Shown here: positions 418-47,900 of the stretch, piece after piece
Numbering within the stretch: the stretch's first letter is position 1
How the letters are laid out: each line of letters starts with the position of its first letter
Source: a virus
Reading direction: 5' to 3' (one strand)
Length of the DNA stretch: 47,900 bases
Virus record (IMG/VR): IMGVR_UViG_3300032431_000013
Location: 1 to 47,900 of that record
Made by a program: the position numbers and the translations under genes
The notes under the pieces: model-generated
Seen by the model: only the letters and a program-made list of their open reading frames with translations
Told to the model about the DNA's origin: nothing
Database searches by the model: none

Positions 418-600
418 TCAGGCGGGGATTGTGATGCGCTCCATGCCTTCGGACTCGATGCGGGCGGTCCAACCGAATCCGGCCGCTTTGAGAGCTTTAC
501 GCATGGCGCGCTTGGCCAGGCGGAGGTTGGTGAATTCCTGCCCCTTCTCCCGGGCGAATGGGGGGAGGACGAGGTATGCGGTGTAGATGGTTTTGGTCAT
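418..600 (-). CDS. Small hypothetical protein with AAGFGWTA motif
   Basis: 60 residues from ATG at 600 (MTKTIYTAYLVLPPF...). A basic helix (LRLAKRAMRKALK) leads into 'AAGFGWTARIESEGMER', shared with the next gene at 150-365. An in-frame GTG at 639 would add 13 residues. That GTG lies six bases after a -10-like TAGATT, so either start is possible. I prefer ATG 600, because the leader from 639 matches a leader at 46258 whose GTG is out of frame with its gene. Confidence 0.65.
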   Translation of the reverse strand: MTKTIYTAYLVLPPFAREKGQEFTNLRLAKRAMRKALKAAGFGWTARIESEGMERITIPA

Positions 601-673
601 TTTCGTTTTTCCCTTTTTCTCTGAAGCTCTCTGCCTCACCCCTGTAATCTAATCTTGTACTCACCGAATGCAA
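600..673 (-). promoter_or_regulatory. Promoter and 5' stem-loop leader of the 418-600 gene
   Basis: On the minus strand TTGCAT (673-668), 16 bases, TAGATT (651-646), six bases, GTG (639). The predicted message would start at or near this GTG. The first bases form a small hairpin (TGAGGC, loop AGAGA, GCTTCA), followed by an A-rich stretch with AAGGG before ATG 600. The leader at 46258 has the same layout and a perfectly paired stem. The -35/-10 region includes a GTACTCAC box (657-664). Confidence 0.5.
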
Positions 674-2327: not shown

Positions 2328-2368
2328 TTCTGGACTTCTGTACTCACGAGACTAAGCTTGACTCTCAG
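2325..2368 (+). promoter_or_regulatory. Promoter of the 2369-6102 operon (34-base repeated element)
   Basis: TGGACT (2331-2336), 16 bases, TAAGCT (2353-2358), then ATG at 2369, so the leader would be only a few bases long. About 34 bases here recur almost exactly, in opposite orientation, at 44079-44112 before the leftward gene at 44070. The copy includes a GTACTCAC box (2340-2347) between -35 and -10. The two operons are probably controlled by the same factor. Confidence 0.6.
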
Positions 2369-5138: not shown

Positions 5139-5620
5139 ACCCTCACACTGTGGGCATGGCCCACTCGGAGGATGAGAATCAAGGCGCGCTGTTTTCATGG
5201 CTGAACATGGCAAGTCTTTGGGGAGTGCAAATGGCCAACGAACCTAGAGCCTACACTGAACTAGGGTTCGTGAAAAAACACGGCATGCTACCGCCAACAC
5301 GCATCGGTGCACTGCGGTTTGCATTTGCCGTGCCAAACGGTGCGCATATGAACTCAGCTCGAACCGCTGCAATCATGAAAACCAAGGGGATGAAAAACGG
5401 GGTCCCTGATATTTTCGTGCCAACTCGAACAAGTCGCTACGCGGGACTCTTCATCGAACTCAAATCGGCTAACGGTGCAAAAGTCAAAAGTGGAAAAACG
5501 CACATTGAGCAAACGATTTGGCGTGACGCATTACGATCGCTCGGCTATCGTGTTGAGTCTGGAGTGGTCGGATGGCACAATGCCCGAGACCTAATTCTAG
5601 AACACATTAAGGAGGATTGA
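5135..5620 (+). CDS. VRR-NUC domain nuclease
   Basis: 161 residues. 'MKNGVPDIFVP' (about residues 89-99), 'GLFIELKSANG' (108-118) and the later Gln in 'IEQTIWRDALRSLGYRV' form the PD-(D/E)xK core of virus-type replication-repair nucleases: Asp of PDI, ELK, then a Gln in the following helix. 'FAVPNGAH' near residue 65 is also typical. Such proteins cut or process branched or ended DNA during replication and recombination, and usually act with other proteins. Stand-alone phage VRR-NUC proteins are commonly about this size. ATGA overlap with the preceding gene. Confidence 0.88.
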   Translation: MNPHTVGMAHSEDENQGALFSWLNMASLWGVQMANEPRAYTELGFVKKHGMLPPTRIGALRFAFAVPNGAHMNSARTAAIMKTKGMKNGVPDIFVPTRTSRYAGLFIELKSANGAKVKSGKTHIEQTIWRDALRSLGYRVESGVVGWHNARDLILEHIKED

Positions 5621-29067: not shown

Positions 29068-32039
29068 TTTGGGCTATTGTTATCATTGCTGCGGTAGCCA
29101 TTGGTGCCCTAACAACGGCGCTATTCGGGGCGTTCAAGAAGGCCCCTGGTGAGACGCAAGAGGGGTCTTTGACGGGCCCTAGGTCCAGTTTTGGCGACGC
29201 TATCCCCATCATTATCGGGACGATGCAAGTTGACTCGCCTATCACCATTGCCGCGACTTGTTTTTTTGGATCTAAGGTTTTGAGCGGAGATCCAGACACT
29301 TGGGACGGGCAAATCATCGATCCTGATATCGTCAACGAGCCTTCATATTACCCAGCACAGAAGGCCGCTATCCAATACGCGGGAGCGCTTGATATTGTTC
29401 TCAGTCAACGACTTTTCAAAAACAACGCCCCGTTGTCTACCCTGAGACTCCGCAAGATTTGGTATGGTGACAACCTATTGTGGAGTGGCGAAAACTGGGC
29501 AACCCCCCTAACATATTCCAGCGACTTGCTTTCAGCCGACCCAAATGTATTGGGTCCCGATAATGGCCTTAATTATCCAGGGGGTGTGACCGATACGGGT
29601 AACGCTGGGCCCAAGGCTTGGTATTTCGGCGGATATGAAACCCAGACAACAGAAGGCGAAGCGACTAGTCTGATCGGCGCGTATTTGTTCGGAGTAGGGT
29701 ATCCTGGGTACAACGGAACTCGATACACTAAATCACAAGGTCTCGACCGCATTCGATTTTATTGCGGAAACGGAAACGAGGAAATGAATCCGTTTTTTCT
29801 CAGTCAAGCTGGCCCCCTTTTGGGTTCGGGTGATTATCCCGCATACTCGAATCTTGCGCGATTGGTTTTCTCTAACTTCTTTTTCGGTCTTGGGCCAAGC
29901 ATTCGCCCCATAACCGCGGAAATAACTCAGAGTTGCCCTGCTGCGGAAATTGGCGATGTGTCGGGCCTCATGCAAAACGGGCGCGATGTTAACCCCGTTT
30001 CGTTCCTCTATCAGTTACTGACAAATACACAGCTAGGTGGGTCGCCAAAAGTGCCAGCGATTGATCTTGCTGATTGGTCAATCGCTCGTGCGGCGGTTGC
30101 GGCGGATGGTTTGGGCCTTTCGTACCGCATGCAATCGCGCGTTAAACTTAGCAGCGTTATCGACCAAGTTTTGCAACATATTGATGGTATTCTCTATCAA
30201 GAGCCAACTTTAGGAACGCTCAAGATTGCACTCAATCGCGACCTACTTCCGAACGCCATCGTTCCGAAGTTCACGGCCGCTGATATGTTAGAGCCACCGG
30301 AAATCGAGAAGACCACTTGGGAGGCAACTGTATCTCAAGCCCGCCTTACATTTTCGATGCGTGGCCTAGCGGCTAACGGAATGACTGCTCAAAACGTAGC
30401 AGTTGCAAAAGATCCGGGGTTAGCTAACGACAATCAAGTCGACACTCTTGACGATCAGATTGACACCGTGTTTGATCCTTTGGTCGCTAATTTACTTGCG
30501 GCTCGAAAGCTCGCGATTGCAAATACGCCGCTTCTCAAAATTACGCAAAAGTTCAAGCGCAGTGCCGATGCTATGGGGTTGCGACCTCTAAGCGCCTTCG
30601 ATTTCGATTATCCGGAATGGGGTATCGTCAAAATCAGATGCCGCGTGGTCTCAATCGATTTTGGCAACCTTGAAGACAACGCCGTTTCGATCGTTGCGAT
30701 CCAAGACAGGTTCGTACCTGCGCCTATTGTTGCGGCACCCAAACCGCCACTCAACATACCTGTAACGCTCCGGCGCCCGGATGTGACGATTGCCAATTAT
30801 CGTATGGAGGCCGCTCCGTATGCTCTGGCGCGTTGCGGCATTCAGGGTGACGCAAGGCGAGTGCTTTCGACGGCAACCATGATTGGTGTTTATGGCGCTC
30901 CTAAAGGTGAGCTTTTCGACCGTTTCATGATGATTGCCAAGCGCCCGTACGTCGGTGCAAATTTTTTCTCTTGGCAATTGAGAGACACAACAGACAACAT
31001 TATTTTAGAGACGAAACTTGTTCCCTACACCAATAGCGGGACACTAGATACAACTATAGCTTCTCAAACTGCGACGACCACTGGTGTTGTCGGAGGATTC
31101 ACAATTTCTGGAATTGACGGTAACGCCATCGCACGAATGACCAGCGGGCTTAAACGCGATGGTCGTAACGTGGTATTGATCGATTCGGAATACCTACTAA
31201 TCGAAACGTTTACAATCCTATCCGCCACTTCCATTTCCGTGACTAATGCCCATCGCATGCTTTGGGATTCACCAAACGCACCAACCGGCCCGAATTGGAT
31301 TCCAGTTCACAACATTGGCGCAACCGTTTGGTTTTTCGATCTCCGTGATCAAGCCGGGATGGCAGCTCGACTTTCAGCACCAATCGCGTCCAATGCGTTT
31401 ACATTGACCGCTGCTTTCCCCTCGCCCTCTGGTCCGTTCGATCGTCCATTTGCAGCTGGGTACGGAACCGCCCGCTATCAAGCGATTTTGGCAAATGCTG
31501 ACTCTTTGAAAAACAACCTAAAGGTAACAGCGTCCGCTGTAGTTTTGGCAGATCGAGCTAACAACCCATACCCGACAAGACGCACGGCAATTGATGGGCC
31601 AAGTAACTTTCCTGATCTATTCGTAACGTTACCTAGTGCATCTAGCACTTTAGATATTGATCTCGAGCCGCCCTCGGGTTATCAACCCGGACTAAACCCA
31701 AGAGAAGGTTTCGATATTTTCCCGTTTGATTCTTCCTTATACATAACTAGTTATGAGGAGGAGATATTTCCTCTTTTGGTAGGTGCTAATTACGCCCCTG
31801 CAACTTGGCTAAAAGACAACTTCAAGGTTTGGTATAGAATACCAGCATTGCCCGCTTTTGCAGCGTTACGCAACGCACCTGCACAGATTGGGTCTGGCGG
31901 TCTATATAGATTCACCTTTCCAACTGGACTTAATTCAAGAACAGTCGAAGTATTTATTGCTAGATCTTTCGATCACCCGTATGGTTATGCAATGCTCGGC
32001 CAAGCGCGTGCAATCACAATGACTTTGAATCGCGTCTAG
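29064..32039 (+). CDS. Central tail tip protein (gpJ-like)
   Basis: 991 residues. The start contains a hydrophobic segment (MIWAIVIIAAVAIGALTTAL), common in this family. Residues about 385-545 (VLQHIDGILYQEPTLGTLKI, then a polymer of beta strands to IDFGNLEDNAVSIVAIQDRF) match the phage tail tip domain of J-type proteins. The C-terminal half is beta-rich and probably exposed. It should be the central hub or host-specificity protein. It is the last gene of the tail operon and its stop overlaps the polymerase stop on the other strand. Confidence 0.8.
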   Translation: MIWAIVIIAAVAIGALTTALFGAFKKAPGETQEGSLTGPRSSFGDAIPIIIGTMQVDSPITIAATCFFGSKVLSGDPDTWDGQIIDPDIVNEPSYYPAQKAAIQYAGALDIVLSQRLFKNNAPLSTLRLRKIWYGDNLLWSGENWATPLTYSSDLLSADPNVLGPDNGLNYPGGVTDTGNAGPKAWYFGGYETQTTEGEATSLIGAYLFGVGYPGYNGTRYTKSQGLDRIRFYCGNGNEEMNPFFLSQAGPLLGSGDYPAYSNLARLVFSNFFFGLGPSIRPITAEITQSCPAAEIGDVSGLMQNGRDVNPVSFLYQLLTNTQLGGSPKVPAIDLADWSIARAAVAADGLGLSYRMQSRVKLSSVIDQVLQHIDGILYQEPTLGTLKIALNRDLLPNAIVPKFTAADMLEPPEIEKTTWEATVSQARLTFSMRGLAANGMTAQNVAVAKDPGLANDNQVDTLDDQIDTVFDPLVANLLAARKLAIANTPLLKITQKFKRSADAMGLRPLSAFDFDYPEWGIVKIRCRVVSIDFGNLEDNAVSIVAIQDRFVPAPIVAAPKPPLNIPVTLRRPDVTIANYRMEAAPYALARCGIQGDARRVLSTATMIGVYGAPKGELFDRFMMIAKRPYVGANFFSWQLRDTTDNIILETKLVPYTNSGTLDTTIASQTATTTGVVGGFTISGIDGNAIARMTSGLKRDGRNVVLIDSEYLLIETFTILSATSISVTNAHRMLWDSPNAPTGPNWIPVHNIGATVWFFDLRDQAGMAARLSAPIASNAFTLTAAFPSPSGPFDRPFAAGYGTARYQAILANADSLKNNLKVTASAVVLADRANNPYPTRRTAIDGPSNFPDLFVTLPSASSTLDIDLEPPSGYQPGLNPREGFDIFPFDSSLYITSYEEEIFPLLVGANYAPATWLKDNFKVWYRIPALPAFAALRNAPAQIGSGGLYRFTFPTGLNSRTVEVFIARSFDHPYGYAMLGQARAITMTLNRV

Positions 32040-36517: not shown

Positions 36518-37389
36518 GCGATACTTGTCCACGCAGGACAAGCGGAGTCAATGCGCTCTGCTGTTAGTGGTACCGCTAGATCACAATACCATTTCCCGTC
36601 CGCTACTGGTTTTGCGTGTAAGCATGATCGACAATTGCGATCTGGCACCCCTTCGTTAAATCGGCACAAGGGTTTGAATTTACACCACCTGCATTTCTCA
36701 TCCGAGACATTTCCCGACACACGAGGGGGTGCTTCTTGCTGGCCTATGATTCTCAAACCTCGGCGAATTGAGGCCTTGCCCCGCTCTTGGTTAATCTCGA
36801 CAAGTTGAACGAAAATTTGATCGTTGTCTTTGCAAAGCGCGATGTAGAGCGCGTGTTTGATTTCCAATGCGACACCATAGGTTTCGAATTGAGTAACGTG
36901 CTCGGGTTTGGAAATCTCCAAACCTTTTTTCTCCAAAGCCAAAAATGATTTCAGATTGTGAGTTTTCGCTTCAAGAATGCACACCAACCCGCCGAGTGCA
37001 GGTGTTAGTTTTATGATAGCGTCGACGGAACCGCCCAGGTGCCCATTGTCAGATCGAAATGCAAAAGGCCGTCCAGTTTTCGGGTCAACTCGCCAAACCT
37101 TGTCGCAAATCTCCTCCATATAGGCAATAAGGCGATCTTCTTCTGAATGACCGCGACTGAAGAGTCGTTGCATGCGCCCCTCACTATCGATCGTCTCGCC
37201 CGTATCACGGTTGAATCTGAGATAGGATTCGGTACCAACCCAACGGAAACCATACCAAATTTCCCGGTCACATTGACGGCCCAGTACCGACGCCCCAAGA
37301 TGCGTTCGACGTGGATCGTCATCGCCTAGCGTTTTGCAAAACGTATCAATTGCGGCCGCAATTTGTTTGGAAATAACTTGTAGGTCCAC
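36514..37389 (-). CDS. PD-(D/E)xK exonuclease, RecB/Cas4-like, with Cys clusters
   Basis: 291 residues from GTG 37389. 'RGHSEEDRLI' (79-88), 'GGSVDAII' (119-126) and 'CILEAKTHN' (137-145) give the nuclease core (His81, Asp123, Glu140, Lys142). Cys40 in 'LGRQCDREIWY' together with Cys233, 236 and 242 could hold a 4Fe-4S cluster as in Cas4/AddB nucleases. A second set (Cys253, 256, 269, 284) may bind zinc. It probably makes single-stranded ends for the recombination proteins encoded just upstream. The GTG lies next to the tRNA terminator, so the gene may depend on read-through. Confidence 0.85.
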   Translation of the reverse strand: MDLQVISKQIAAAIDTFCKTLGDDDPRRTHLGASVLGRQCDREIWYGFRWVGTESYLRFNRDTGETIDSEGRMQRLFSRGHSEEDRLIAYMEEICDKVWRVDPKTGRPFAFRSDNGHLGGSVDAIIKLTPALGGLVCILEAKTHNLKSFLALEKKGLEISKPEHVTQFETYGVALEIKHALYIALCKDNDQIFVQLVEINQERGKASIRRGLRIIGQQEAPPRVSGNVSDEKCRWCKFKPLCRFNEGVPDRNCRSCLHAKPVADGKWYCDLAVPLTAERIDSACPAWTSIA

Positions 37390-37394
37390 ACCCG

Positions 37395-37425
37395 AAAAGC
37401 CCCGCCCCCGTTTGAAGGGCGAGGC
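37395..37425 (-). terminator. Rho-independent terminator after tRNA-Tyr
   Basis: On the minus strand GCCTCGCCC (37425-37417) pairs with GGGCGGGGC (37407-37399), nine pairs including one G-U, followed by TTTT (37398-37395). It lies between the tRNA and the GTG of the nuclease gene. It may both define the tRNA 3' end and reduce transcription of the nuclease, helicase and polymerase genes. Confidence 0.75.
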
Positions 37426-37427
37426 GG

Positions 37428-37509
37428 TGAAACGTGCTGGATTCGAACCAGCGAGGCATTAAACGATTGGTTTACAGCCAACCCCCTTCGACCGCTCGGG
37501 CAACGTTCC
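37428..37509 (-). tRNA. tRNA-Tyr (anticodon GTA)
   Basis: On the minus strand the acceptor GGAACGT (37509-37503) pairs with ACGTTTC (37435-37429), with one G-U. The D arm is CCC...GGG with GAGCGGTCGAA. The anticodon stem GTTGG/CCAAT encloses CTGTAAA, anticodon GTA. A long variable arm and the T arm GCTGG-TTCGAAT-CCAGC follow. The long variable arm is expected for bacterial tRNA-Tyr. Only CC of the CCA end is encoded, so the host must complete it. It lies inside the leftward recombination operon. Confidence 0.92.
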
Positions 37510-37513
37510 ATTT

Positions 37514-37531
37514 GCCCCGTATTGCCGGGGC
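37514..37531 (-). other. Small hairpin between the DUF669-like gene and tRNA
   Basis: GCCCCG (37514-37519) pairs with CGGGGC (37526-37531) around six bases, five bases before the tRNA 5' end. It could be a signal for processing the tRNA from the polycistronic transcript, or a weak terminator. Confidence 0.5.
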
Positions 37532-37547
37532 CACGCATGGCCTACCT

Positions 37548-38135
37548 TCAATCCCAGGGGTTCGAATCCCCTTCAATCTCAGCCGTCGACGTCGACGCAT
37601 CGGAGATTTGAGGGGCAGATGCTGCCGTAAACGGATCAGACTCGGCTACGGCCGGCTTAGAGTTGCTAGAGGGTCGAAATGAGGAGTCCCATGGCTTGGT
37701 ACCATCGGCCGATGAGTAGCCGACAACCTCAGTCCAACCCTTGAGCTGCGCTTCCTCTCCGTCCTGCAAGGCGACGTGAACGCGATGCGGGCGATTGGCG
37801 TAAAGACGAGTGTTCGAAGAATCCTGCAAACCGATGCCGCAAACGAACGCGATGCGGGCTAGGTCGCGTTTTGCGATTTCAACCGCCTTCGGGGTTTGAT
37901 TGAATAGATTTAGCCTCAGAGTAAATTCCTTTCCGTCGTGCGGCCCACCTGTGATTCGCTCGCTGAACGTCAGCATGCCGTTTTCGGGATTCGATACCGA
38001 CTTGTCAAATCGACTCCCGACGATCACGCATAGATGCCCGTGCTCATCTGATACCGGCCAGCCTTTCCCGCCCTCGCGTAGATCGCCCTGTTGATTTGCA
38101 AAAAATGGTTCTTTGAGTGTGACGAAGTCTGACAT
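37548..38135 (-). CDS. DUF669-like protein, probable single-strand DNA-binding partner
   Basis: 195 residues. The core 'GGPHDGKEFTLRLNLFNQTP' (about 63-82), then 'AVEIAKRDLARIAFVCGI', matches DUF669 proteins found next to Sak-type ATPases and nucleases. The last 50 residues are Ser/Ala-rich and end with an acidic tail and NPWD, as in many single-strand binding proteins. It probably binds single-stranded DNA or assists annealing. It follows the ATPase gene with one base shared (TAATG). Confidence 0.72.
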   Translation of the reverse strand: MSDFVTLKEPFFANQQGDLREGGKGWPVSDEHGHLCVIVGSRFDKSVSNPENGMLTFSERITGGPHDGKEFTLRLNLFNQTPKAVEIAKRDLARIAFVCGIGLQDSSNTRLYANRPHRVHVALQDGEEAQLKGWTEVVGYSSADGTKPWDSSFRPSSNSKPAVAESDPFTAASAPQISDASTSTAEIEGDSNPWD

Positions 38136-38818
38136 TATTTCGATGCTTTCGGCTTATTGATCTTGTTGAATAGATAGGTCAAATCGGGTTTTTCAAGTTC
38201 GGCCAGACGACCCGAGCGATCGCGAGTGATAGTCGTAACGTCGGGCATTACCTGTAGGCACTTGAGGGGCTTATAGTTGGTTCTCGCGTCTGTGATTTCT
38301 CCGTAATGTACCATCACATCGAATTCATAAGGGACGACGAAACCAAGCGCTTTTCCTGGCATATAAGGGGCCCTAACGCTAATTTCGTTCTCTTTCTGAA
38401 CGTCAAGTTTTGCCGTAACGTACACATTTTTGGATAGGCCTTTTAGCTGCCCAACAACCTTTCGCACGAAATCCGCCATCGCCCCGTATGCCTGCATTCC
38501 GTGCGAGTGTTTTTTCAACTCACGTTCGACAACTATTTCCGCGAGTTCGCTTATCGAATCGATGCATACGGTTTCGTATTTCGTCATTTCCGATGACGAA
38601 GAAATAAACTTCAAAAAATCGCATACTAACTCGTAAGTGTAACACTCGACCGCTGCTACGTTAGAGCCGCGCAATGACAAGGCCCCCTTTTCAGTCAGCA
38701 TGACCAAGGGCTTTGGGGCCGTAGCTGCAAGGGGCGTTTTGCCCATACCTGGGCGCCCGTAGCAGAGCACGTTAGGCCCAATGCGTTGGGCTATGGAATC
38801 CGCAGTGACGATCTTCAC
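38135..38818 (-). CDS. Sak4-like recombination ATPase (AAA_24)
   Basis: 227 residues. Walker A is 'CYGRPGMGKTPLA' (19-31) and Walker B-like 'YETVCIDSISEL' lies near residue 81. The single-RecA-core layout, length and gene neighbours (DUF669-like protein, exonuclease) fit Sak4-type single-strand annealing proteins. These act with a single-strand binding protein in phage recombination. ATGA coupling to the upstream gene. Confidence 0.82.
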   Translation of the reverse strand: MKIVTADSIAQRIGPNVLCYGRPGMGKTPLAATAPKPLVMLTEKGALSLRGSNVAAVECYTYELVCDFLKFISSSSEMTKYETVCIDSISELAEIVVERELKKHSHGMQAYGAMADFVRKVVGQLKGLSKNVYVTAKLDVQKENEISVRAPYMPGKALGFVVPYEFDVMVHYGEITDARTNYKPLKCLQVMPDVTTITRDRSGRLAELEKPDLTYLFNKINKPKASK

Positions 38819-39246
38819 TTGGGCGCCTTGGGGGGCTTGATTTCAAGAGTCGGCATTGCCGGCTTTGCGACGATCACACGGCCGAGCATCAATCGGAGAT
38901 TTTCGGGAGCCGCCTTGTATGCACTGAGAGATAGCTCGGGCTTCCATTTGACCATTCGAGCTGCCTCCGCCTCTTCCACCGGCCCGAGCGCCTCGATCGC
39001 CTCCAAAGCTGCACGGCATGCATCGACACTTTCGAACGAATGGTTGATTTTCGAAACCATCGAAACTTTCCAACCCTTCGGGAGTGGGCGGTGTTCGGTC
39101 CCCTCGCGCAGCTCCCCCTCGCCGAGGTCGAAAACAACGTCCGCCACCAAACGCCGCAACGCGTTTTCGGTTGCCGTTGCAGCCGCAGCTTCTTTTCGAG
39201 CGTTCGCCCATTTGCCGACTAGTGCGGCCTTTTCGTCGTCATTCAT
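38815..39246 (-). CDS. Hypothetical protein, first gene of the recombination operon
   Basis: 143 residues: an N-terminal charged helix (EKAALVGKWANARKEAAAAT), a mixed middle 'LPKGWKVSMVSKINHSFES', and a Pro/Lys-rich end. Proteins of this type often precede phage Sak4/RecT genes, but their role is unknown. ATG 39246 lies only nine bases after the -10 of a good promoter, with no Shine-Dalgarno sequence. Confidence 0.65.
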   Translation of the reverse strand: MNDDEKAALVGKWANARKEAAAATATENALRRLVADVVFDLGEGELREGTEHRPLPKGWKVSMVSKINHSFESVDACRAALEAIEALGPVEEAEAARMVKWKPELSLSAYKAAPENLRLMLGRVIVAKPAMPTLEIKPPKAPK

Positions 39247-39284
39247 TGTTCTCGGACGCTAGCGCGCCCATTTCAGACTGTCAA
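39247..39284 (-). promoter_or_regulatory. Leftward promoter of the replication/recombination operon
   Basis: Minus strand TTGACA (39284-39279, consensus), 17 bases, TAGCGT (39261-39256), nine bases, ATG 39246. The -35 overlaps the first operator-like repeat (39281-39295), so a bound repressor would block it. Confidence 0.7.
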
Positions 39285-39553: not shown

Positions 39554-41861
39554 ATTGCAGGCGTACCGCCAGTGGGTTGTTTGGAGATTGGAGGAAAGGT
39601 CAGGGTCCGCAAAACCGACCAAAATTCCGTATTCGCCCGTTCACGGTTTCGCTGCAAGCGTGACGAATCCATCTGACTGGGGTTCGTTTGAGGACGCGGA
39701 ACAATACGCGGATAAAGAAGGCTTCAATGGTGTGGGTTTCGTCTTGGCGAAATCCGACCCGTTTACATTTATTGATCTCGACGCAACGCAAGTTCCAGAA
39801 GATCGCGAGCTGCAAAGAAAAATCGTCGAGAAATTCAACTCGTACACAGAGCGAAGCCCTAGCAAAAAAGGCGCGCACATCATCGTTCGTGGCATTGTGC
39901 CCACAGGCCGTCGTCGTCGTTCCGTCGAGATCTATTCGTCCGATCGCTACATGACAATGACCGGGGACGTTGTTCGCGACGTCGAGATCGTGGACGGCGG
40001 AGCTGCCCTATCGTCACTGTACGACCTGCTCTCACCCCCGATCAAGAGCATCGCAAATCACACGGAGGAGCCAGACACTGGTAACGACGCAGAGATTTTG
40101 CGTTGGGCCGGGGACGCCTCAAATGGAGAGTTATTTAGGGCATTGTGGGCCGGAGATTGGGCATCGCGCTATGAGAGCCAGTCCCAAGCGGACTACGCTC
40201 TGATCTCGATATTGGGACACTACACTTGGAGTCGTCTGCAAGTACATCGGCTATTTCTCGCGAGTGGTTTGGCCAATCGCCAGAAATCCCACAGGGCAGA
40301 CTATGTTAGCAAGATGTTAGATGCATGCTTTGACAACAAGCCCCCTCGCATTGACGTTGCGGCGGTACTTGCCTCATTGCTCGCGGTACAAGACGCCGAC
40401 ACAAGCGAATTCGAGATCGTGGACAATGCACCCCCTGAGTGTGAGCCGACGTTCCCCAAGCCCCACGTTGCGCCACCACCGAAGGCATCCGCCAAGATCC
40501 AAAAATCGTACCCATACCCAACTGGCATCGTTGGTGATTTGGCCGAATTTATTTACGCCGCAAGCCCGTATCAGTTGAGAGAGGCCGCACTCATGGGAGC
40601 CTTGTCATTGGTCGCGGGCATGGCAGGGCGGTGTTTCAACGTGAGCGGGACCGGCCTGAACCAATATTTCATTCTGATCGGACCTACAGGGGTAGGTAAA
40701 GATTCCGCTCAAATCGGCCTGAATGTATTCCGTCAGATTTTCGCTGAAGTGCTGCCAACCGCGCTCGCGTTCGTGGGCCCGGGCGAAATAGCATCCCCGC
40801 AAGCGTTGACCAAGCATCTGGCCGAGCACCCTTCGTGTGTTAGCTACTCGGGAGAAATTGGACACCTAATCCAGGAAATGAGCACCCCCGAAGCAGTTGG
40901 GGTCAAGCAAGGCTTGAAGCGCCTTTTGCTCCAAATCTACTCGCTTAGCGGAGCTAACAAATCGCTAGGTGCCACGATCTATTCGGACAAGACGAAAAAT
41001 GTGGAAACTACTCGTTCGCCGTCGTTCACTTGGGCCGGAGAGACTACCCCCGATGGTTTCTACCCGAACATAGATGAGCGAATGGTTAGAGAAGGGCTCA
41101 TTCCTAGATTTCTGATCATAGAGACGAGCAACGTTCGACCCCCGCTGAACAAGTCGCACAAGTCGATCAAGCCTTCGACCCAGCTACAAGCGGCTATGGT
41201 TGACCTTGCGCATCATTGCGTGACTCTCAATGCAGCAAATCGAGTGAGCGAAATTCCATTTGCAAGTGTCGAAGCCGAGTCCATTTTCGATGACTTCGAA
41301 GTGTATTGCAGCAAGAAAATCAACAGTGCTGATCGTGATATCAAGCGGGCATTTTGGACTCGCCAAAACCTCAAGGCACTGAAACTCGCGGGCTTGATTG
41401 CCGTCGGTCAGAAATTCGCGAAACCTGCAATCGACTCCGATACGGCGCGATGGGCAATCCGGATTTGCGTGCAAGATGTGGAGAACATGCTTGCACGTTT
41501 CGATGCCGGGGAAATCACAATGGGCGATTCAGAAAATCAGCAAATCGACTATGTGATCGAGCGGGTTCGAATGTGGATGCTCTCACCCTGGGTCAAAGTG
41601 GCCAGCTACGCGCCCGGGCCTGGTGAGAAAATGCACGCTGGAAGGGTCATTCCCTACGGCTACATTCAGCGCACCTGTGTTGGCGTCTCCTCGTTTCGCA
41701 GAGATCGACTAGGTTCTACCAATGCAATCAAGCGTGCTGTTCAGCAACTGCTAGATCGTGGCGATCTCATAGAAACACCTAAGTCCCATCTGGCAGAGCA
41801 GTATGGGACAACCTCAAAGGCATATATGGTCGGAAATATGAGCGCCTTTCGGCTAAAGTGA
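39537..41861 (+). CDS. Primase-polymerase/helicase fusion (NrS-1-like with DUF3987-type ATPase)
   Basis: 774 residues from TTG 39537, supported by GGAGG at 39526-39530. The N-terminal primase-polymerase part has 'TKIPYSP', the DLD of 'FTFIDLDATQ' (80-82), His114 in 'KKGAHIIVRG' and 'SVEIYSSDRYMTMTGD' (129-144). Then comes a helical domain typical of NrS-1 polymerase (SQADYALISILGHYTWSRLQ, about 216-235). After a Pro-rich linker, an ATPase domain with Walker A 'IGPTGVGKDS' (381-390) follows. It likely primes and unwinds at the replication fork. Confidence 0.85.
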   Translation: MAIPAELQAYRQWVVWRLEERSGSAKPTKIPYSPVHGFAASVTNPSDWGSFEDAEQYADKEGFNGVGFVLAKSDPFTFIDLDATQVPEDRELQRKIVEKFNSYTERSPSKKGAHIIVRGIVPTGRRRRSVEIYSSDRYMTMTGDVVRDVEIVDGGAALSSLYDLLSPPIKSIANHTEEPDTGNDAEILRWAGDASNGELFRALWAGDWASRYESQSQADYALISILGHYTWSRLQVHRLFLASGLANRQKSHRADYVSKMLDACFDNKPPRIDVAAVLASLLAVQDADTSEFEIVDNAPPECEPTFPKPHVAPPPKASAKIQKSYPYPTGIVGDLAEFIYAASPYQLREAALMGALSLVAGMAGRCFNVSGTGLNQYFILIGPTGVGKDSAQIGLNVFRQIFAEVLPTALAFVGPGEIASPQALTKHLAEHPSCVSYSGEIGHLIQEMSTPEAVGVKQGLKRLLLQIYSLSGANKSLGATIYSDKTKNVETTRSPSFTWAGETTPDGFYPNIDERMVREGLIPRFLIIETSNVRPPLNKSHKSIKPSTQLQAAMVDLAHHCVTLNAANRVSEIPFASVEAESIFDDFEVYCSKKINSADRDIKRAFWTRQNLKALKLAGLIAVGQKFAKPAIDSDTARWAIRICVQDVENMLARFDAGEITMGDSENQQIDYVIERVRMWMLSPWVKVASYAPGPGEKMHAGRVIPYGYIQRTCVGVSSFRRDRLGSTNAIKRAVQQLLDRGDLIETPKSHLAEQYGTTSKAYMVGNMSAFRLK

Positions 41862-43149: not shown

Positions 43150-43331
43150 GCTAGCCTCTTTTGCAGTTGCTCAATTACCGATTGGACCAAAGTAAGCTTT
43201 CGGTTCGCACTAACTATTTCCGCGTCAAGTCTGCTAACCCGCTCTAGCTCAAATGCAATGAGTCTGATTTCGTCATGGCTTGCGCGTTGCTGCCTCATGT
43301 TGTCCCACGCTTGGGCAACTTCACGCGCCAT
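43146..43331 (-). CDS. Small coiled-coil hypothetical protein
   Basis: 61 residues from ATG 43331 (MAREVAQAWDNMRQQRASHD...), one long helix with a heptad-like end (LTLVQSVIEQLQKRLA). TAATG coupling to the lipoprotein gene upstream and ATGA coupling to the next gene support the frame. No function known. Confidence 0.55.
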   Translation of the reverse strand: MAREVAQAWDNMRQQRASHDEIRLIAFELERVSRLDAEIVSANRKLTLVQSVIEQLQKRLA

Positions 43332-43864
43332 TATTGCGTGACCTCGGCAACCCAGGCGATATCGTCTGCTGTTACTCGCGTTGCGCATGCATTACCCTCG
43401 CGCATGATCGCGGACGGGTCCCCTTCTCCCGCTGGTAGCTTGGTGTAGGTGGTCGCGAACGCCGACCCGATGGCGCTCATTGCGCTCGACTTGGCGCACT
43501 GGTAACCGGCGGCATCGTCTGCCACCCAAACGACGGCGAGGGAGTAAACAGAGCCGGTGTGCCAACCATCACCGTTTGGGTGAGACGAAAACGGGCGAAC
43601 GTGAATGAATCTAGGGTCATTCACATTGTCAACAATCGTCGTGAAAATATTCGATTGTGGAAGCGCTTCCCGCCACTCGTTTAGTGCATCCATGAAGAGT
43701 GTCATTTGTTCAGTGGTCAGATCTGGCGAAACGCCAAAGTTAATTTCGACTCCCGCGCCTACCGTGGGGTCAGTGTATCCGTCGTCTGTACCCCCTTCGA
43801 CACCCCCGCAAGCGATTGCGCAAAGTCCAAAAATCAAGGCTGAAATTGTAATGATGTTTTTCAT
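43331..43864 (-). CDS. Lipoprotein resembling an inactive matrixin-type peptidase
   Basis: 177 residues from ATG 43864. It starts with a lipoprotein signal (MKNIITISALIFGLCAIAC, lipobox AIAC with Cys at about residue 19), then an acidic linker. The mature part ends with 'GDPSAIMREGNACATRVTAD' and 'DIAWV', which recalls the 'SIMY...T.DDI' end of matrixin-like proteins. The expected HExxH zinc site is absent; the equivalent stretch reads 'IGSAFATTYTKLP'. It may be a non-catalytic membrane-bound protein, for example acting on superinfecting phages. This comparison is by eye. Confidence 0.6.
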   Translation of the reverse strand: MKNIITISALIFGLCAIACGGVEGGTDDGYTDPTVGAGVEINFGVSPDLTTEQMTLFMDALNEWREALPQSNIFTTIVDNVNDPRFIHVRPFSSHPNGDGWHTGSVYSLAVVWVADDAAGYQCAKSSAMSAIGSAFATTYTKLPAGEGDPSAIMREGNACATRVTADDIAWVAEVTQ

Positions 43865-44070
43865 GATGTTAGCTCTTTTCCAGTTTCGAATGATGTTCCC
43901 GTGTGGCGTTCCCATTGTCGCTTAATTGCGTCGGGGTGATGATTGCAAGCTCCCGAGCCCTTACGATGCGGAAACCAATATCCGTGACAATCGCACGGCG
44001 CGCCTTGTTTTTTCCGTCGCGATTCGCGCTTTCGGAGTTTTGCGGCTCGTTTTTCTGTTATCCGCCCCAC
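43861..44070 (-). CDS. Small Cys/His-rich protein, possible zinc binding
   Basis: 69 residues from GTG 44070. A very basic N-terminus (KRAAKLRKRESRRKKQ) is followed by 'CDCHGYWFPHRKGSGACNHH', with three Cys and four His that could bind zinc. It may bind nucleic acid. The GTG lies exactly six bases after a TAAGGT -10 box, so the message is probably leaderless. It overlaps the lipoprotein gene by ATGA. Confidence 0.65.
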   Translation of the reverse strand: MGRITEKRAAKLRKRESRRKKQGAPCDCHGYWFPHRKGSGACNHHPDAIKRQWERHTGTSFETGKELTS

Positions 44071-44112
44071 CTCTGTACCTTAGTCTCGTGAGTACAGAAG
44101 TCCAGAATTAAA
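44071..44112 (-). promoter_or_regulatory. Second copy of the 34-base promoter element
   Basis: Minus strand TGGACT (44104-44099), 16 bases, TAAGGT (44082-44077), six bases, GTG 44070. From 44079 to 44112 the sequence matches 2325-2358 reversed, with one or two differences. It contains GTGAGTAC (44088-44095), the complement of GTACTCAC. Confidence 0.65.
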
Positions 44113-44299
44113 TGGGGCCGTTTGGTTTATTTCGATGACTGACCCAACGGTCCAAAAGTTCGCGGATAATTTCAGCTAGAGATTCCGTCGGGTACAGCGC
44201 CCCTCTGTAGCGCTCTGACTCCTCAGGGGTGACTCTGATCTGGATTCGATCGCTGGATTTCTCGCCCCGGTCGGGTGGGCGCCCTTGTTGATTTTTCAT
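44108..44299 (-). CDS. Small ribbon-helix-helix-like protein
   Basis: 63 residues from ATG 44299. After a polar N-terminus (KNQQGRPPDRGEKSSD) comes 'RIQIRVTPEESERYRGALYP' and 'SLAEIIRELLDRWV', that is a strand followed by two helices, the pattern of ribbon-helix-helix DNA-binding proteins. It could control one of the repeated operators. GGAG lies nine bases before the ATG. Confidence 0.6.
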   Translation of the reverse strand: MKNQQGRPPDRGEKSSDRIQIRVTPEESERYRGALYPTESLAEIIRELLDRWVSHRNKPNGPI

Positions 44300-44932: not shown

Positions 44933-44955
44933 CAAAGGAAAGGGCCCGAAGGCCC
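44933..44955 (-). terminator. UUCG terminator after the 44970-45170 gene
   Basis: Minus strand GGGCC (44955-44951), TTCG, GGCCC (44946-44942), then TTTCCTTT. The same hairpin core ends the genes at 47201 and 47496. Confidence 0.7.
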
Positions 44956-44969
44956 CCTCTTGTCTCAGC

Positions 44970-45170
44970 TCATGCAGCGTGCCCACCCGATGTGCCTACA
45001 CAGCCGGTCCAAGCTACCACTGTGAGGGGGGCGCCCAGCTTGCGGCTCATGGCGGCGACCTTGGCCTGGGCTGCCTCTTCCGTGCGGCACTTGCCGTAGT
45101 GATTCGTGTTGTCGTCAAGGCGGACGATGGCAAACCAGATGACTGTGGAGGTCTTTGCTTCGTTGTTCAC
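44970..45170 (-). CDS. Small hypothetical protein in a one-gene cassette
   Basis: 66 residues from GTG 45170 (VNNEAKTSTVIWFAIVRLDD...), an alpha/beta pattern without known family. The start is chosen because TATAAT (45182-45177) lies exactly six bases upstream; a frame opening at GTG 45185 would lie upstream of the transcription start. The gene has its own operator, promoter and terminator. Confidence 0.62.
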   Translation of the reverse strand: MNNEAKTSTVIWFAIVRLDDNTNHYGKCRTEEAAQAKVAAMSRKLGAPLTVVAWTGCVGTSGGHAA

Positions 45171-45243
45171 CCCTTGATTATACACGTCTAGAGCAGGGCT
45201 GCCAGGACTAAATGAAGGTCTAGTGCATTCAGGCCAACGGGCC
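45171..45243 (-). promoter_or_regulatory. Operator-promoter cassette before 45170
   Basis: Minus strand, in order: hairpin GGCC-CGTT-GGCC (45243-45232), operator CTGAATG-N11-CATTTAG (45232-45208), -35 CTGGCA (45205-45200), 17 bases, -10 TATAAT (45182-45177), six bases, GTG. This is one of four cassettes of this type. Confidence 0.75.
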
Positions 45244-45253
45244 GGTGATACTG

Positions 45254-45541
45254 CTATCCATTCGCGTTATTCAAGATTCCGCGCAACCGCTCCACCTTGC
45301 GAGCCAACACTCGCCAAGCGTCCGGATTCATCGCGCCGAGCACGACCAGAAAAACGTCGGCCGCTTCTTCGTCGACCTCAGCTTCCGTTCCTCGGCCCCG
45401 CTCACGTCGAGCAATTGCGGTAATCAGTTCGCCGCATTCCTCAGTGATCATATTGTCCTGTCCGACGTCGCCGAAAACCGATCGCGCTTTTTGCGCAAGG
45501 TCGAAGGCTTGAATAACCAAATCTATGTTTAATGTAATCAT
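45254..45541 (-). CDS. MazG-like nucleotide pyrophosphohydrolase
   Basis: 95 residues, mostly helical. 'ITEECGELITAIARR' (32-46) and 'EVDEEAADVFLVV' (55-67) give the EExxE...ExxD metal-binding pattern of MazG/all-alpha NTP pyrophosphatases. Such phage enzymes remove particular nucleotides or lower alarmone-type signals during infection. It overlaps the upstream gene by ATGA. Length is that of single-domain phage members. Confidence 0.8.
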   Translation of the reverse strand: MITLNIDLVIQAFDLAQKARSVFGDVGQDNMITEECGELITAIARRERGRGTEAEVDEEAADVFLVVLGAMNPDAWRVLARKVERLRGILNNANG

Positions 45542-45753
45542 CGGCCGGCCAGCCGGTCTAGACGAGGGAAGTCGGCCCGAAGGTGACGTAGGGCCTCTAG
45601 GCTAATGCCGAGATCGGCGGCTGCGGCAGTGAGCGTTGGTCGAAGGCGCATTGCATCGGCTATCAGGCGCTCGGCATTATTTTCAAGTGACTGAAACGGC
45701 CCCGCAAGCGCGGCGCGTAGGACATTGATCGGGGCGGAGGAGTGGGGTCTCAC
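45538..45753 (-). CDS. Small helical protein, HTH-like
   Basis: 71 residues from GTG 45753. 'RPTLTAAAADLGISLEALRH' has the look of a helix-turn-helix (ALA...LGIS...LR). It may bind DNA. The GTG overlaps the upstream stop (GTGA), supporting the start. No larger family is recognised. Confidence 0.6.
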   Translation of the reverse strand: MRPHSSAPINVLRAALAGPFQSLENNAERLIADAMRLRPTLTAAAADLGISLEALRHLRADFPRLDRLAGR

Positions 45754-45953
45754 GATGCCACCCCGAACTCTCGCGACAGCTCGGCGTCGGAATACGTTGG
45801 GTCGCCTTCGTGTAGGCCGTGCGAAAACATGCAGTACTCCTGCCCTCGAAAGTCGCGAGGCCAGACACCGGCGCAGCCCAGGCGCTCGATCTGCGCCGGC
45901 GTAAGATCGACGGTTGCGCCGCTGGGTGACTGATAGGTGATGACTTGGTTCAT
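45750..45953 (-). CDS. Small hypothetical protein
   Basis: 67 residues from ATG 45953. It opens with two strands and a short helix (ITYQSPSGATVDLTPAQIER), then has 'GAGVWPRDFRGQEYCMFSHG'-like aromatic content (residues about 36-54) and a charged end. No family recognised. The gene starts right after the repeated hairpin at 45954-45988. Confidence 0.6.
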   Translation of the reverse strand: MNQVITYQSPSGATVDLTPAQIERLGCAGVWPRDFRGQEYCMFSHGLHEGDPTYSDAELSREFGVAS

Positions 45954-45988
45954 ACCGCGAAAGCCCCCAGGCTTGGTAGCGTGGGGGC
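45954..45988 (-). promoter_or_regulatory. Repeated hairpin directly before a start codon (copy 2)
   Basis: Minus strand GCCCCCA (45988-45982) pairs with TGGGGGC (45969-45963) around CGCTACCAAGCC, followed by TTTCGCGGT and ATG 45953. The copy at 366-400 has G-C at the loop-closing pair where this copy has A-T; the rest is identical. Confidence 0.65.
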
Positions 45989-46008
45989 GGGGTTGGGTGG
46001 GGTGGGGT

Positions 46009-46224
46009 TCAGCCGGCCAGCTCGACGAAGTATGCATCCCAAGCCGCGGCAGCTTCACTTTCAGCCCCAACCAACTCGCCTCGCGCGCTGCATGCCGTCT
46101 CGGCATCCGCGTGGTTCCGCGTCTCGGACACCGAGATTTGCGCGCCCACAAGAGCCTCACGGCTGCGGATGAGGCGAGCCGTTGCGGGAGAGAATGCGAT
46201 TCCGTCGATAATTACGTTTTTCAT
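46009..46224 (-). CDS. Small protein of the 'IDGIxFSPxTAxLI' family
   Basis: 71 residues starting MKNVIIDGIAFSPATARLIR. The start matches the 46854-47075 product and, more weakly, the 683-919 product. The second half is Ala-rich helical and ends 'WDAYFVELAG'. Function unknown. The message should start near 46258 and carry a 5' stem-loop before the gene. Confidence 0.65.
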   Translation of the reverse strand: MKNVIIDGIAFSPATARLIRSREALVGAQISVSETRNHADAETACSARGELVGAESEAAAAWDAYFVELAG

Positions 46225-46320
46225 GATTTTGCCTTTTCTCTGAGGCTCTCTGCCTCACCCCTTGATTATACACGTCTAGAGCAGGGCTGCCAGAACTAAA
46301 TGAGGCTCTAGAGCATTTAG
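46225..46320 (-). promoter_or_regulatory. Operator-promoter cassette with stem-loop leader before 46224
   Basis: Minus strand: operator CTAAATG-N11-CATTTAG (46320-46296), -35 CTGGCA (46293-46288), 17 bases, TATAAT (46270-46265, consensus), six bases, GTG (46258). That GTG is out of frame with the gene. The leader begins GTGAGGCAGAGAGCCTCA, a perfect 6-bp stem at the 5' end, followed by AGAGAAAAGG and ATG 46224. Confidence 0.75.
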
Positions 46321-46322
46321 TT

Positions 46323-46532
46323 TCATGGGAACCCCGCCCAGGCCCAATTGGCCCAGGCTTCGCGCTCGATTGCCAATGCTGCCTCCCAGGCCTCCCAATC
46401 GCCCTTTGCCGAGCTGCGGATGGCAGTGTTCCGAGCTAGCGACCTGGCCTCCCAAGCGTCGCGCCATGCGCCCTCTAGGCCCAATGGCTGATCAAAGCGC
46501 TGTATCCTCGCCACGATTTCTGCTGGGGTCAT
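46323..46532 (-). CDS. Small Trp/Ala-rich helical protein
   Basis: 69 residues from ATG 46532 (ATGA with the upstream gene). It contains repeated W-containing helical units: GAWRDAWEARS, GDWEAWEAALAI, EAWANWAWAG. About one residue in ten is Trp, which is unusual. It may insert into or lie on a membrane, or bind a protein groove. The stop lies two bases from the operator of the next cassette. Confidence 0.6.
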   Translation of the reverse strand: MTPAEIVARIQRFDQPLGLEGAWRDAWEARSLARNTAIRSSAKGDWEAWEAALAIEREAWANWAWAGFP

Positions 46533-46705
46533 GCTGCGGGCGGCAGTGTCAGACGGTAGGCGGCCCATGCCGATTTGACCCGTCGCTCCATTTCGTACAT
46601 CACTTGCTCGGCTTCATCGCAGAGCACATGGGCTCTCTCCACTGCCAGCTTCGCGGCCTCCTCAGCGCGGGCAGAGGCGAGCCAGGCCTTGTGTTCGTCG
46701 GTCAT
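46529..46705 (-). CDS. Small helical protein
   Basis: 58 residues from ATG 46705 (MTDEHKAWLASARAEEAAKL...), one long charged helix. ATGA overlaps at both ends place it in a four-gene operon. Similar in character to the 46702-46857 product (Ala-rich, W-containing), so they may be related. No function known. Confidence 0.55.
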   Translation of the reverse strand: MTDEHKAWLASARAEEAAKLAVERAHVLCDEAEQVMYEMERRVKSAWAAYRLTLPPAA

Positions 46706-46857
46706 CGCCTGGCCCGGCCCATAGCCAATGCCCTGGCCTCCGCATGCAATCGGCGAGTGTCCGCCTGTACCCACACGCGATGAGCCTCTTTTGCAGCCTT
46801 CGCCGCAGCCTGGGCTGTAGCCATTGCCTCTCGCCATGCCGCTTCCTCGGGGCTCAT
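46702..46857 (-). CDS. Very small Ala-rich helical protein
   Basis: 51 residues from ATG 46857 to TGA 46704-46702 (MSPEEAAWREAMATAQAAAK...), ending in a basic tail (MGRARR). ATGA overlaps with both neighbours are the main evidence that it is a gene. Probably one continuous helix. Confidence 0.55.
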   Translation of the reverse strand: MSPEEAAWREAMATAQAAAKAAKEAHRVWVQADTRRLHAEARALAMGRARR

Positions 46858-47075
46858 GACACACCTGCCGCGATCGCTACAGCCGAAACGTACTCGTGCC
46901 AGTTCTCGGACTCCTCAGGGCCGCCTGTCAGGCACAGCGCCAAGAGTGAAGCCTTCGAACACATCCCAGCTTTGAGTATGGCAACGTCAGCGATCGGGGT
47001 AATGCTATTTTCCAAAATCAGCTCCGCCGTCCTGGGCGAGAATGAGATACCATCAATATTTACGTTGTTTTTCAT
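46854..47075 (-). CDS. Small protein of the 'IDGIxFSPxTAxLI' family
   Basis: 73 residues from ATG 47075, starting MKNNVNIDGISFSPRTAELI. It is the closest relative of the 46009-46224 product at the N-terminus, and its C-terminal 'NWHEYVSAVAIAAG' resembles the end of the 683-919 product. It is the first gene of a leftward four-gene operon. Function unknown. Confidence 0.62.
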   Translation of the reverse strand: MKNNVNIDGISFSPRTAELILENSITPIADVAILKAGMCSKASLLALCLTGGPEESENWHEYVSAVAIAAGVS

Positions 47076-47107
47076 GGAGCTTTTTCTGGGGCAGTGGGCC
47101 CCCGGGT

Positions 47108-47160
47108 AGGTTAGCACGGTCTAGTACGGCACTGCAATAGAGCGCGGTATGATTTGTCAG
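47108..47160 (-). promoter_or_regulatory. Promoter-like module before 47075
   Basis: Minus strand TTGCAG (47137-47132) with a weak TAACCT (47113-47108) 18 bases on. The flanks (GGCACTGCAATAGA and GTATGATTT on the plus strand) match the module at 116-145. It lacks the CTAAATG operator and the six-base spacing. Confidence 0.4.
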
Positions 47161-47175
47161 ATGGGCCAAGCGGCC

Positions 47176-47191
47176 GGGGCCCGAAGGCCCC
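47176..47191 (-). terminator. UUCG terminator after the 47201-47389 gene
   Basis: Minus strand GGGGCC (47191-47186), TTCG, GGCCCC (47181-47176), ten bases after the gene. No clear T run follows, so termination may be partial. Confidence 0.6.
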
Positions 47192-47200
47192 CTCTCACTT

Positions 47201-47389
47201 TCAGCGAGCCGCAATCTTCTTCGCGCATTTCAGGCAGAGCACCATCCACATATTTCCGTGTACGTCTTCCTCGCTGTAGTAGGCCATCGGCGCCCCCTTG
47301 CCGCAGCACTCGCACGAGTGTTTGAGCATGCGGCCGGACGAGTCGCGAAGGTCGGAGCGGAGGATTTGGGAGTCGGTTGCGGTCTTCAT
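47201..47389 (-). CDS. Small zinc-ribbon-like protein in a one-gene cassette
   Basis: 62 residues. 'SCECCGKGAPMAYYSEEDVH' and 'MVLCLKCAKKIAAR' provide two CxxC pairs, a likely zinc ribbon. ATG 47389 lies exactly six bases after TATACT, so the message should be leaderless. The gene has its own operator, promoter and terminator. It could modulate a host polymerase or bind nucleic acid; this is inference. Confidence 0.68.
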   Translation of the reverse strand: MKTATDSQILRSDLRDSSGRMLKHSCECCGKGAPMAYYSEEDVHGNMWMVLCLKCAKKIAAR

Positions 47390-47462
47390 GAGTTGAGTAT
47401 ACAGGTCTAGAGAGGGAGTGCCAGGACTAAATGTACTAGAGCGTCATTCAGGCCAACGGGCC
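47390..47462 (-). promoter_or_regulatory. Operator-promoter cassette before 47389
   Basis: Minus strand: hairpin GGCC-CGTT-GGCC (47462-47451), operator CTGAATG-N11-CATTTAG (47451-47427), -35 CTGGCA (47424-47419), 17 bases, -10 TATACT (47401-47396), six bases, ATG. Confidence 0.78.
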
Positions 47463-47473
47463 GGGTTGACCAA

Positions 47474-47487
47474 GGGCCCGAAGGCCC
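47474..47487 (-). terminator. UUCG terminator after the 47496-47684 gene
   Basis: Minus strand GGGCC (47487-47483), TTCG, GGCCC (47478-47474), then TTGGTC, starting nine bases after the gene. No long T run. Confidence 0.6.
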
Positions 47488-47495
47488 CCGTGGTC

Positions 47496-47684
47496 TCAGG
47501 TGGGGTCGTCGGAGCTGCCAGCCTCGAAGTCGCCTGCCCACCATGCGTCTGCAATGTGGCTGGGAACGTCGGCCTCAGCCTTGACCTGCTCCAATGTGGG
47601 CACTCGGCCGAGGTTGCTCATGATGCCCCAGCAAGTCGTCTCAAGCTCGTTCATCTGCTTCTTCGTGATTCGCGTCGTCTTCAT
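47496..47684 (-). CDS. Small helical protein in a one-gene cassette
   Basis: 62 residues (MKTTRITKKQMNELETTCWG...), with 'LGRVPTLEQVKAEADVPSHI' in the middle, suggestive of a helix-turn-helix, and an acidic tail (SSDDPT). ATG 47684 lies six bases after TATACT. The longer frame to 47882 crosses its own promoter and is rejected. Function unknown. Confidence 0.62.
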   Translation of the reverse strand: MKTTRITKKQMNELETTCWGIMSNLGRVPTLEQVKAEADVPSHIADAWWAGDFEAGSSDDPT

Positions 47685-47757
47685 GAGTTGAGTATACAGG
47701 TCTAGAAAGGGAGTGCCAGGACTAAATGAAGGTCTAGAGCATTTAGGCCCACGGGCC
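47685..47757 (-). promoter_or_regulatory. Operator-promoter cassette before 47684
   Basis: Minus strand: hairpin GGCC-CGTG-GGCC (47757-47746), operator CTAAATG-N11-CATTTAG (47746-47722), -35 CTGGCA (47719-47714), 17 bases, -10 TATACT (47696-47691), six bases, ATG. It is nearly identical to the cassette before 47389. Confidence 0.8.
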
Positions 47758-47760
47758 GGG

Positions 47761-47900
47761 TTACCCCATCGCAACCGTTGCAATGTCGGAGCGATACAGA
47801 TTGCAGCCAGCTGTGTCTTCGACCGTGGCCGTTGCGTGATTCCGCATGCGGGCTGCAAGTATGTTCGACGCCGACATTGCAACTGAGATTTCCTTGCGAA
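47761..47900 (-). CDS. Partial small protein, 5' end outside window
   Basis: The frame is open from the right edge to TAA (47763-47761) and encodes at least 45 residues (...RKEISVAMSASNILAARMRN...). 'MRNHATATVEDTAG' vaguely recalls 'TRNHADAETACSA' of the 46009-46224 product. The stop is followed by the hairpin of the next cassette, as expected for a gene end. If the map is circular this may be the C-terminus of the gene starting at 92. Confidence 0.5.
   Translation of the reverse strand, partial: RKEISVAMSASNILAARMRNHATATVEDTAGCNLYRSDIATVAMG

Follow-up and report, generated by a model that had tools for sequence, protein, structure and literature searches.

Small genes of a tailed phage with start codons six bases past sigma70-type promoters, predicted to be expressed as leaderless messages

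The IMG/VR record IMGVR_UViG_3300032431_000013 is a sequence of 47,900 bases from an uncultured tailed phage, which was analyzed over its whole length (hereafter the window). Several of its small genes carry a sigma70-like promoter whose -10-like hexamer ends exactly six bases 5' of an ATG or GTG start codon. Judging from the sequence, we consider it probable (roughly 0.8) that these genes are transcribed from host sigma70-type promoters as leaderless messenger RNAs (mRNAs) starting at the start codon. A host sigma70-type holoenzyme would start RNA seven bases 3' of the -10 hexamer; since a start codon six bases past the -10 box matches this start-site rule, +1 would fall on the codon itself. 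Genes 92, 919, 45170, 47389 and 47684 (designated by the position of the start codon) would then give leaderless mRNAs, and 44070 and 1725 likely do so too; the 45170 message may carry at most a few extra nucleotides, at a G-run. Ribosomes would recognize the 5'-terminal AUG or GUG of these messages, an uncommon though known way of starting translation. What is shown below is the sequences themselves, their spacing, the statistics and how relatives compare; from these we infer the transcription start points, a 70S initiation route and translation of all these open reading frames.

The promoters proposed in an earlier note on this DNA could be read directly at six minus-strand starts (92, 919, 44070, 45170, 47389 and 47684), with TTGCAG, CTGGCA, TTGACT or CTGGAC as -35 box and spacers of 16–17 bases. 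The candidate gene at 1–92 (MSNAKTARRLETIART...) exits the contig's left end, and its promoter (93–126) reads TTGCAG-16-TATACT-CAACTC-ATG within a 13-bp dyad, GTATACAGGTCTA/TAGACCTGTATAC, a perfect inverted repeat that spans both the -10 and the -35 box. Gene 919 (683–919, 78 amino acids, MTTVTIGGVELS...) is preceded at 920–953 by TTGACT-16-CATAAT-CAACGA-ATG, which scores 11.0 at gap 6, the gap being the number of bases between hexamer and start codon. Three further candidates, 44970–45170 (66 amino acids, GTG), 47201–47389 (62 amino acids, two CxxC motifs) and 47496–47684 (62 amino acids), stand behind copies of one promoter cassette, namely CTGGCA-17-TATAAT-CAAGGG-GTG at 45171–45245 and CTGGCA-17-TATACT-CAACTC-ATG at both 47390–47464 and 47685–47759. 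The weakest case is 44070 (43861–44070, 69 amino acids, GTG), with CTGGAC-17-TAAGGT-ACAGAG-GTG at 44071–44105; its TAAGGT contains AAGG and could alternatively be a Shine-Dalgarno sequence. The stop codon of this gene overlaps the next gene at 43864, a minus-strand frame (43331–43864) beginning MKNIITISALIFGLCAIACGG that appears lipoprotein-like and has a weak homologue at 36907–37542 in the nearest relative, introduced below as L011.

On the plus strand, the GTG of a Dam-like DNA methyltransferase (1725–2327), a possible leaderless start that the note had listed as a possible further case, follows an extended -10 element at 1710–1724 (TGG-TAGCGT) in the arrangement TAGCGT-ACTAGG-GTG; the -35 is poor, and the TGn extension is present. 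The L011 orthologue has a Shine-Dalgarno sequence, and the alignment begins at residue 1. For most candidates no alternative ATG or GTG start lies within about 20 codons. The set reaches both contig ends and is not confined to positions 45171–47696, as had been proposed. Nor is the spacing as fixed as the note held: besides gap 6, gap 9 occurs upstream of 39246 and gap 10 upstream of the near-leaderless gene 2369–2542 (promoter 2330–2368, plus strand, CTGGAC-17-TAAGCT-N10-ATG, related to the 44070 promoter), and an almost identical promoter drives the leadered gene 46224.

To quantify the excess, sigma70-like promoters were scored at each gap upstream of 67 gene starts, with locally shuffled upstream sequences as controls. 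A score of at least 8 at gap 6 was found at 5 of the 67 starts against 0.06 expected, a count reached in none of 300 shuffles. The bare motif TANNNT was present at gap 6 for 8 of 66 starts, compared with a mean of 0.5 across the other 39 gaps (Poisson P = 7.5e-8). This value becomes 1.9e-4 if cassette copies are counted once, and 0.015 after also dropping the operon-internal TAAGGT cases at 2910 and 10026, whose AAGG is Shine-Dalgarno-like. A scan of every ATG or GTG opening an open reading frame, made without curated starts, again peaked at gap 6 (4, versus 0–2 elsewhere).

The same arrangement was found in the nearest named relative by DNA polymerase, portal and terminase, MW202679 (ctUnS216, Manatee Spring; locus L011), which has a similar gene order and shares 46% identity in the DNA polymerase and 56% in the terminase. 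Its start calls are those of GenBank, made by others and hence independent. Promoters at gaps 6–8 precede 4 of its 55 testable starts, with 0.20 expected and none of 300 shuffles reaching this number: TTGACA-17-TAGGGT-CCCCGG-GTG at 38100 and TTGACG-17-TAAGGT-ACTCTC-ATG at 38683 (both gap 6), TATAAT-GGGGGGT-ATG at 39973 (gap 7), and TTGACA-17-TAGCTT-GCGACCCC-ATG at 31255 (gap 8). The small genes 38346, 40517 and 41069 of L011 have strong promoters at gaps of 24–29, with AGAAAGG-type sites between. Predicted leaders (gap minus 6) are bimodal, of about 0–4 or at least 18 nucleotides.

One gene, 38815–39246 of the phrog_2480 family, could be followed further. A TTGACA promoter lies close upstream of its orthologues in the window (39256–39284, minus strand, TTGACA-17-TAGCGT), in L011 and in the relatives G021, G024 and G026. 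The gap to the start codon is 9 in the window and 8 in L011, and the latter three have a leader of about 25–31 nucleotides, so that, on this sequence comparison, leader loss looks derived in the pair formed by the window and L011. A comparable predicted leaderless set is present in L011, and the other relatives show no gap-6 excess: in 2.04 Mb of further related loci, 5 cases fell at gap 6 against roughly 8–9 per gap. The idea that gap 6 is common throughout the wider phage group was rejected on this count.

No Shine-Dalgarno sequence was found upstream of 92, 919, 45170, 47389 or 47684, and 44070 is ambiguous because of its TAAGGT. Genes inside the operons had been described as having ordinary ribosome binding sites, a description that needs tempering: good internal sites exist at 5617, 13248 and 39537, many other internal genes lack a good one, and the dip of the anti-Shine-Dalgarno energy profile (2.1 kcal/mol) is the smallest among ten related phages (2.3–4.0). 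A first count had indicated no Shine-Dalgarno use at all in the window; since the energy profile reveals a signal that is weak but real, that conclusion was dropped. The central proposal of the earlier note, leaderless messages, is supported by the spacing, the chance statistics, the replicate in L011, the lack of Shine-Dalgarno sequences at the strong cases, the scarcity of alternative starts nearby and the phrog_2480 orthologues, with start points predicted from the promoters. The particular host translation mode early in infection that it had invoked is not supported in that form, and no special mode is needed, since bacterial ribosomes in general are able to initiate on leaderless messages.

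A single repeat supplies the promoters of 92, 45170, 47389 and 47684; its copies are conserved as far as the start codon and diverge beyond it. Promoter and start codon would together form a compact module, one version of which occurs four times, each time ahead of a small gene predicted to be leaderless. A further copy of the repeat lies at 46262–46333. This cassette (46259–46333, minus strand) is almost identical to the 45170 copy, and it would drive gene 46224, whose start lies 34 nucleotides past the predicted +1; its leader, GTGAGGCAGAGAGCCTCAGAGAAAAGG, places GTGAGGCAGAGAGCCTCAGAGAAAAGGCAAAATC-ATG after the promoter and holds a small hairpin and a Shine-Dalgarno-like AGAGAAAAGG. Gene 600 has a different promoter (601–673, minus strand), TTGCAT-16-TAGATT-ACAGGG, followed by a homologous 39-nucleotide leader, GTGAGGCAGAGAGCTTCAGAGAAAAAGG. 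In both leadered copies the predicted +1 is the same N6 position at which the other genes begin, which fits the predicted start point. Given 46224 and 600, the promoter by itself does not force leaderless expression, and a GTG at N6 need not be the main start. The common leader (46139–46258 and 418–639, minus strand) reads VRQRASEK... from the GTG at the predicted +1, which is the frame of gene 600 but not of 46224.

Several points weigh against leaderless expression of the set. The independent instances among the six cases number about 3–4, four of them being one duplicated cassette, and the window start calls were partly made with the finding already known. In gene 47684, codon 11 is another in-frame ATG. 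For proteins 47389 and 45170 the phage records yielded no homologues, and their coding therefore lacks independent proof. TAAGGT and TAGGGT boxes may double as Shine-Dalgarno sequences, and the leadered copies at 46258 and 639 also have GTG at N6. Finally, the Rhodobacter phage RcTitan carries a perfect TTGACA-17-TATATT-N6-ATG that is not kept in the sister phages RcHartney and RcThunderbird, where a leadered start farther downstream, behind AAGGAA, takes its place. Rhodobacter Titanvirus was rejected as a second leaderless lineage on this ground, and the RcTitan site illustrates that single instances may mislead.

Three other explanations were weighed. Transcription could begin 1–4 bases 5' of the codon and give mini-leaders instead of none, as CAAGGG|GTG at 45170, which allows G starts at -1 to -3, and the gaps of 7–10 at 39246, at 2369 and in L011 would permit. 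We regard this as unlikely for the set, since the window excess falls exactly at gap 6, and in the three copies with CAACTC|ATG the first base of ATG is the sole well-placed purine start, position -1 being a C. It is rather unlikely that the set is a single duplicated regulatory module whose spacing stems from copying and not from selection for leaderless expression: one repeat is indeed common to 92, 45170, 46258, 47389 and 47684, but different promoters have the same spacing at 919, 1725 and, more weakly, 44070, L011 has unrelated promoters with this spacing, and copying is in any case compatible with leaderless expression. That the gap-6 hexamers are incidental, being repeat leftovers or Shine-Dalgarno-like boxes (TAAGGT) within longer transcripts started upstream and bearing weak or no Shine-Dalgarno sequences, would accord with the almost identical and related promoters before the leadered genes 46224 and 600, with the RcTitan control and with the weak genome-wide Shine-Dalgarno signal, which may mean that other modes of initiation are common here, but it is very unlikely in view of the 5 cases observed against 0.06 expected, the independent excess in L011 and the G+C-rich hairpins that set some cassettes apart from upstream genes.

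Returning to leaderless expression from the start codon, we tentatively propose, as a doubtful extension, that in this phage lineage some of the small genes switched to leaderless expression by way of a duplicating promoter-plus-start-codon module. One promoter would then give two outputs, leaderless with the codon at +1 and otherwise leadered, where a GTG at +1 may open a short leaderless upstream frame (VRQRASEK...).

Further elements surround these promoters. A G+C-rich hairpin after gene 44970–45170 (44942–44960, minus strand), terminator-like by eye, has copies at 47177–47195 and 47474–47492. TCTAGACC-type elements and CTAAATG...CATTTAG dyads flank the cassette promoters (95–134, 45174–45245, 46262–46333, 47393–47464 and 47688–47759), which suggests a common regulator. 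The sequence GTACTCAC, in either orientation, occurs at 657, 962, 2340, 44088 and 44866, at or near the promoters of genes 600, 919, 2369, 44070 and 44818; it is a possible operator and is not present in L011. A small protein encoded at 44108–44299 (minus strand, MKNQQGRPPDRGEKSSDRIQIRVTPEESERYRG...) resembles a ribbon-helix-helix regulator by eye and is a candidate regulator of these promoters.

The window encodes terminase, portal, major head protein and tape measure, together with a family-B DNA polymerase, a primase, a helicase, a Cas4-like exonuclease and a Sak4-like annealing protein; no phage RNA polymerase was found among the window genes searched. Most of the more distant relatives found by protein comparison are phages of Proteobacteria, among them the Pseudomonas phage 73 group and Rhodobacter Titanvirus. 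No DNA-level match to the first 25 kb was found among phage records, viral contigs scanned with single window proteins yielded no close relative, and scans with cassette sequence patterns gave no match or only unrelated chance matches. The phage carries a tyrosine transfer RNA (tRNA-Tyr) gene at 37426–37509 (minus strand); a 22-base piece of it was matched exactly by no genome contig. A search of genome contigs for the host, using DNA polymerase patterns and the tRNA-Tyr fragment, found none. At the contig ends, gene 92 exits on the left, and on the right an open frame (47765–47900) comes in that terminates in ...CNLYRSDIATVAMG*. Their joint, examined for gene 92, showed neither a direct repeat nor a clean reading frame; if the genome forms a circle, this sequence may therefore lack a few bases.

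If the predicted starts hold, an unrelated phage lineage joins the short list of those with leaderless gene sets, and a single genome offers a natural comparison of near-identical promoters that differ in whether a leader follows. For annotation, small genes that may escape gene finders relying on Shine-Dalgarno sequences can have their start codons picked by the -10/N6 rule. The set also hints at a host that tolerates leaderless messages, which may help its identification. As the first codon of a leaderless message, GUG is poor in E. coli and Caulobacter and better in mycobacteria and Streptomyces (PMC9031893); because of this difference, the GTG cases, if real, would be informative about the host.

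In Actinobacteria and Deinococcus-Thermus, leaderless genes as a rule have a -10-like TANNNT just upstream (PMC3160421, PMC12340547). The window genes resemble such TA-led genes (Zheng 2011, PMC3160421; D. radiodurans, PMC12340547) in having TANNNT at a short set distance, about 10–12 bp upstream of the start codon (the hexamer ending six bases before it), no Shine-Dalgarno sequence, and ATG or GTG starts; TA-led genes, however, make up a large share of bacterial chromosomal genes, and here they would be a handful of phage genes. The proteobacterium Caulobacter crescentus, with 375 leaderless genes (about 10%), likewise combines leaderless transcription with low Shine-Dalgarno use, but its genes are cellular (PMC4117421). 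The bimodal leaders recall Lactococcus cremoris, where leaders mapped by Rend-seq are under 5 nucleotides or long, with none of 4–14 nucleotides (PMC10986495); the phage lengths, unlike those, are deduced from promoter positions.

Among phages, lambda cI is a single repressor gene, transcribed from PRM. Its message begins at AUG (PMC9031893, PMC3160421), a likeness to the window genes, which differ in being several small genes whose functions are unknown and whose promoters are duplicated. A paper on phage AR9 describes phage transcripts as "often leaderless" (PMC5312081). Thermus phage phiYS40 expresses a gene set from leaderless mRNAs, with changes in host IF2/IF3 reported (cited in PMC3594737); it too is a phage with a set of leaderless genes, studied by experiment where the window is known by sequence alone, and it was not among the best matches of the window proteins searched. 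Leaderless phage genes are thus already known from lambda cI and phiYS40, and what distinguishes the present phage is the combination of duplicated cassettes with a leaderless and leadered pair under near-identical promoters.

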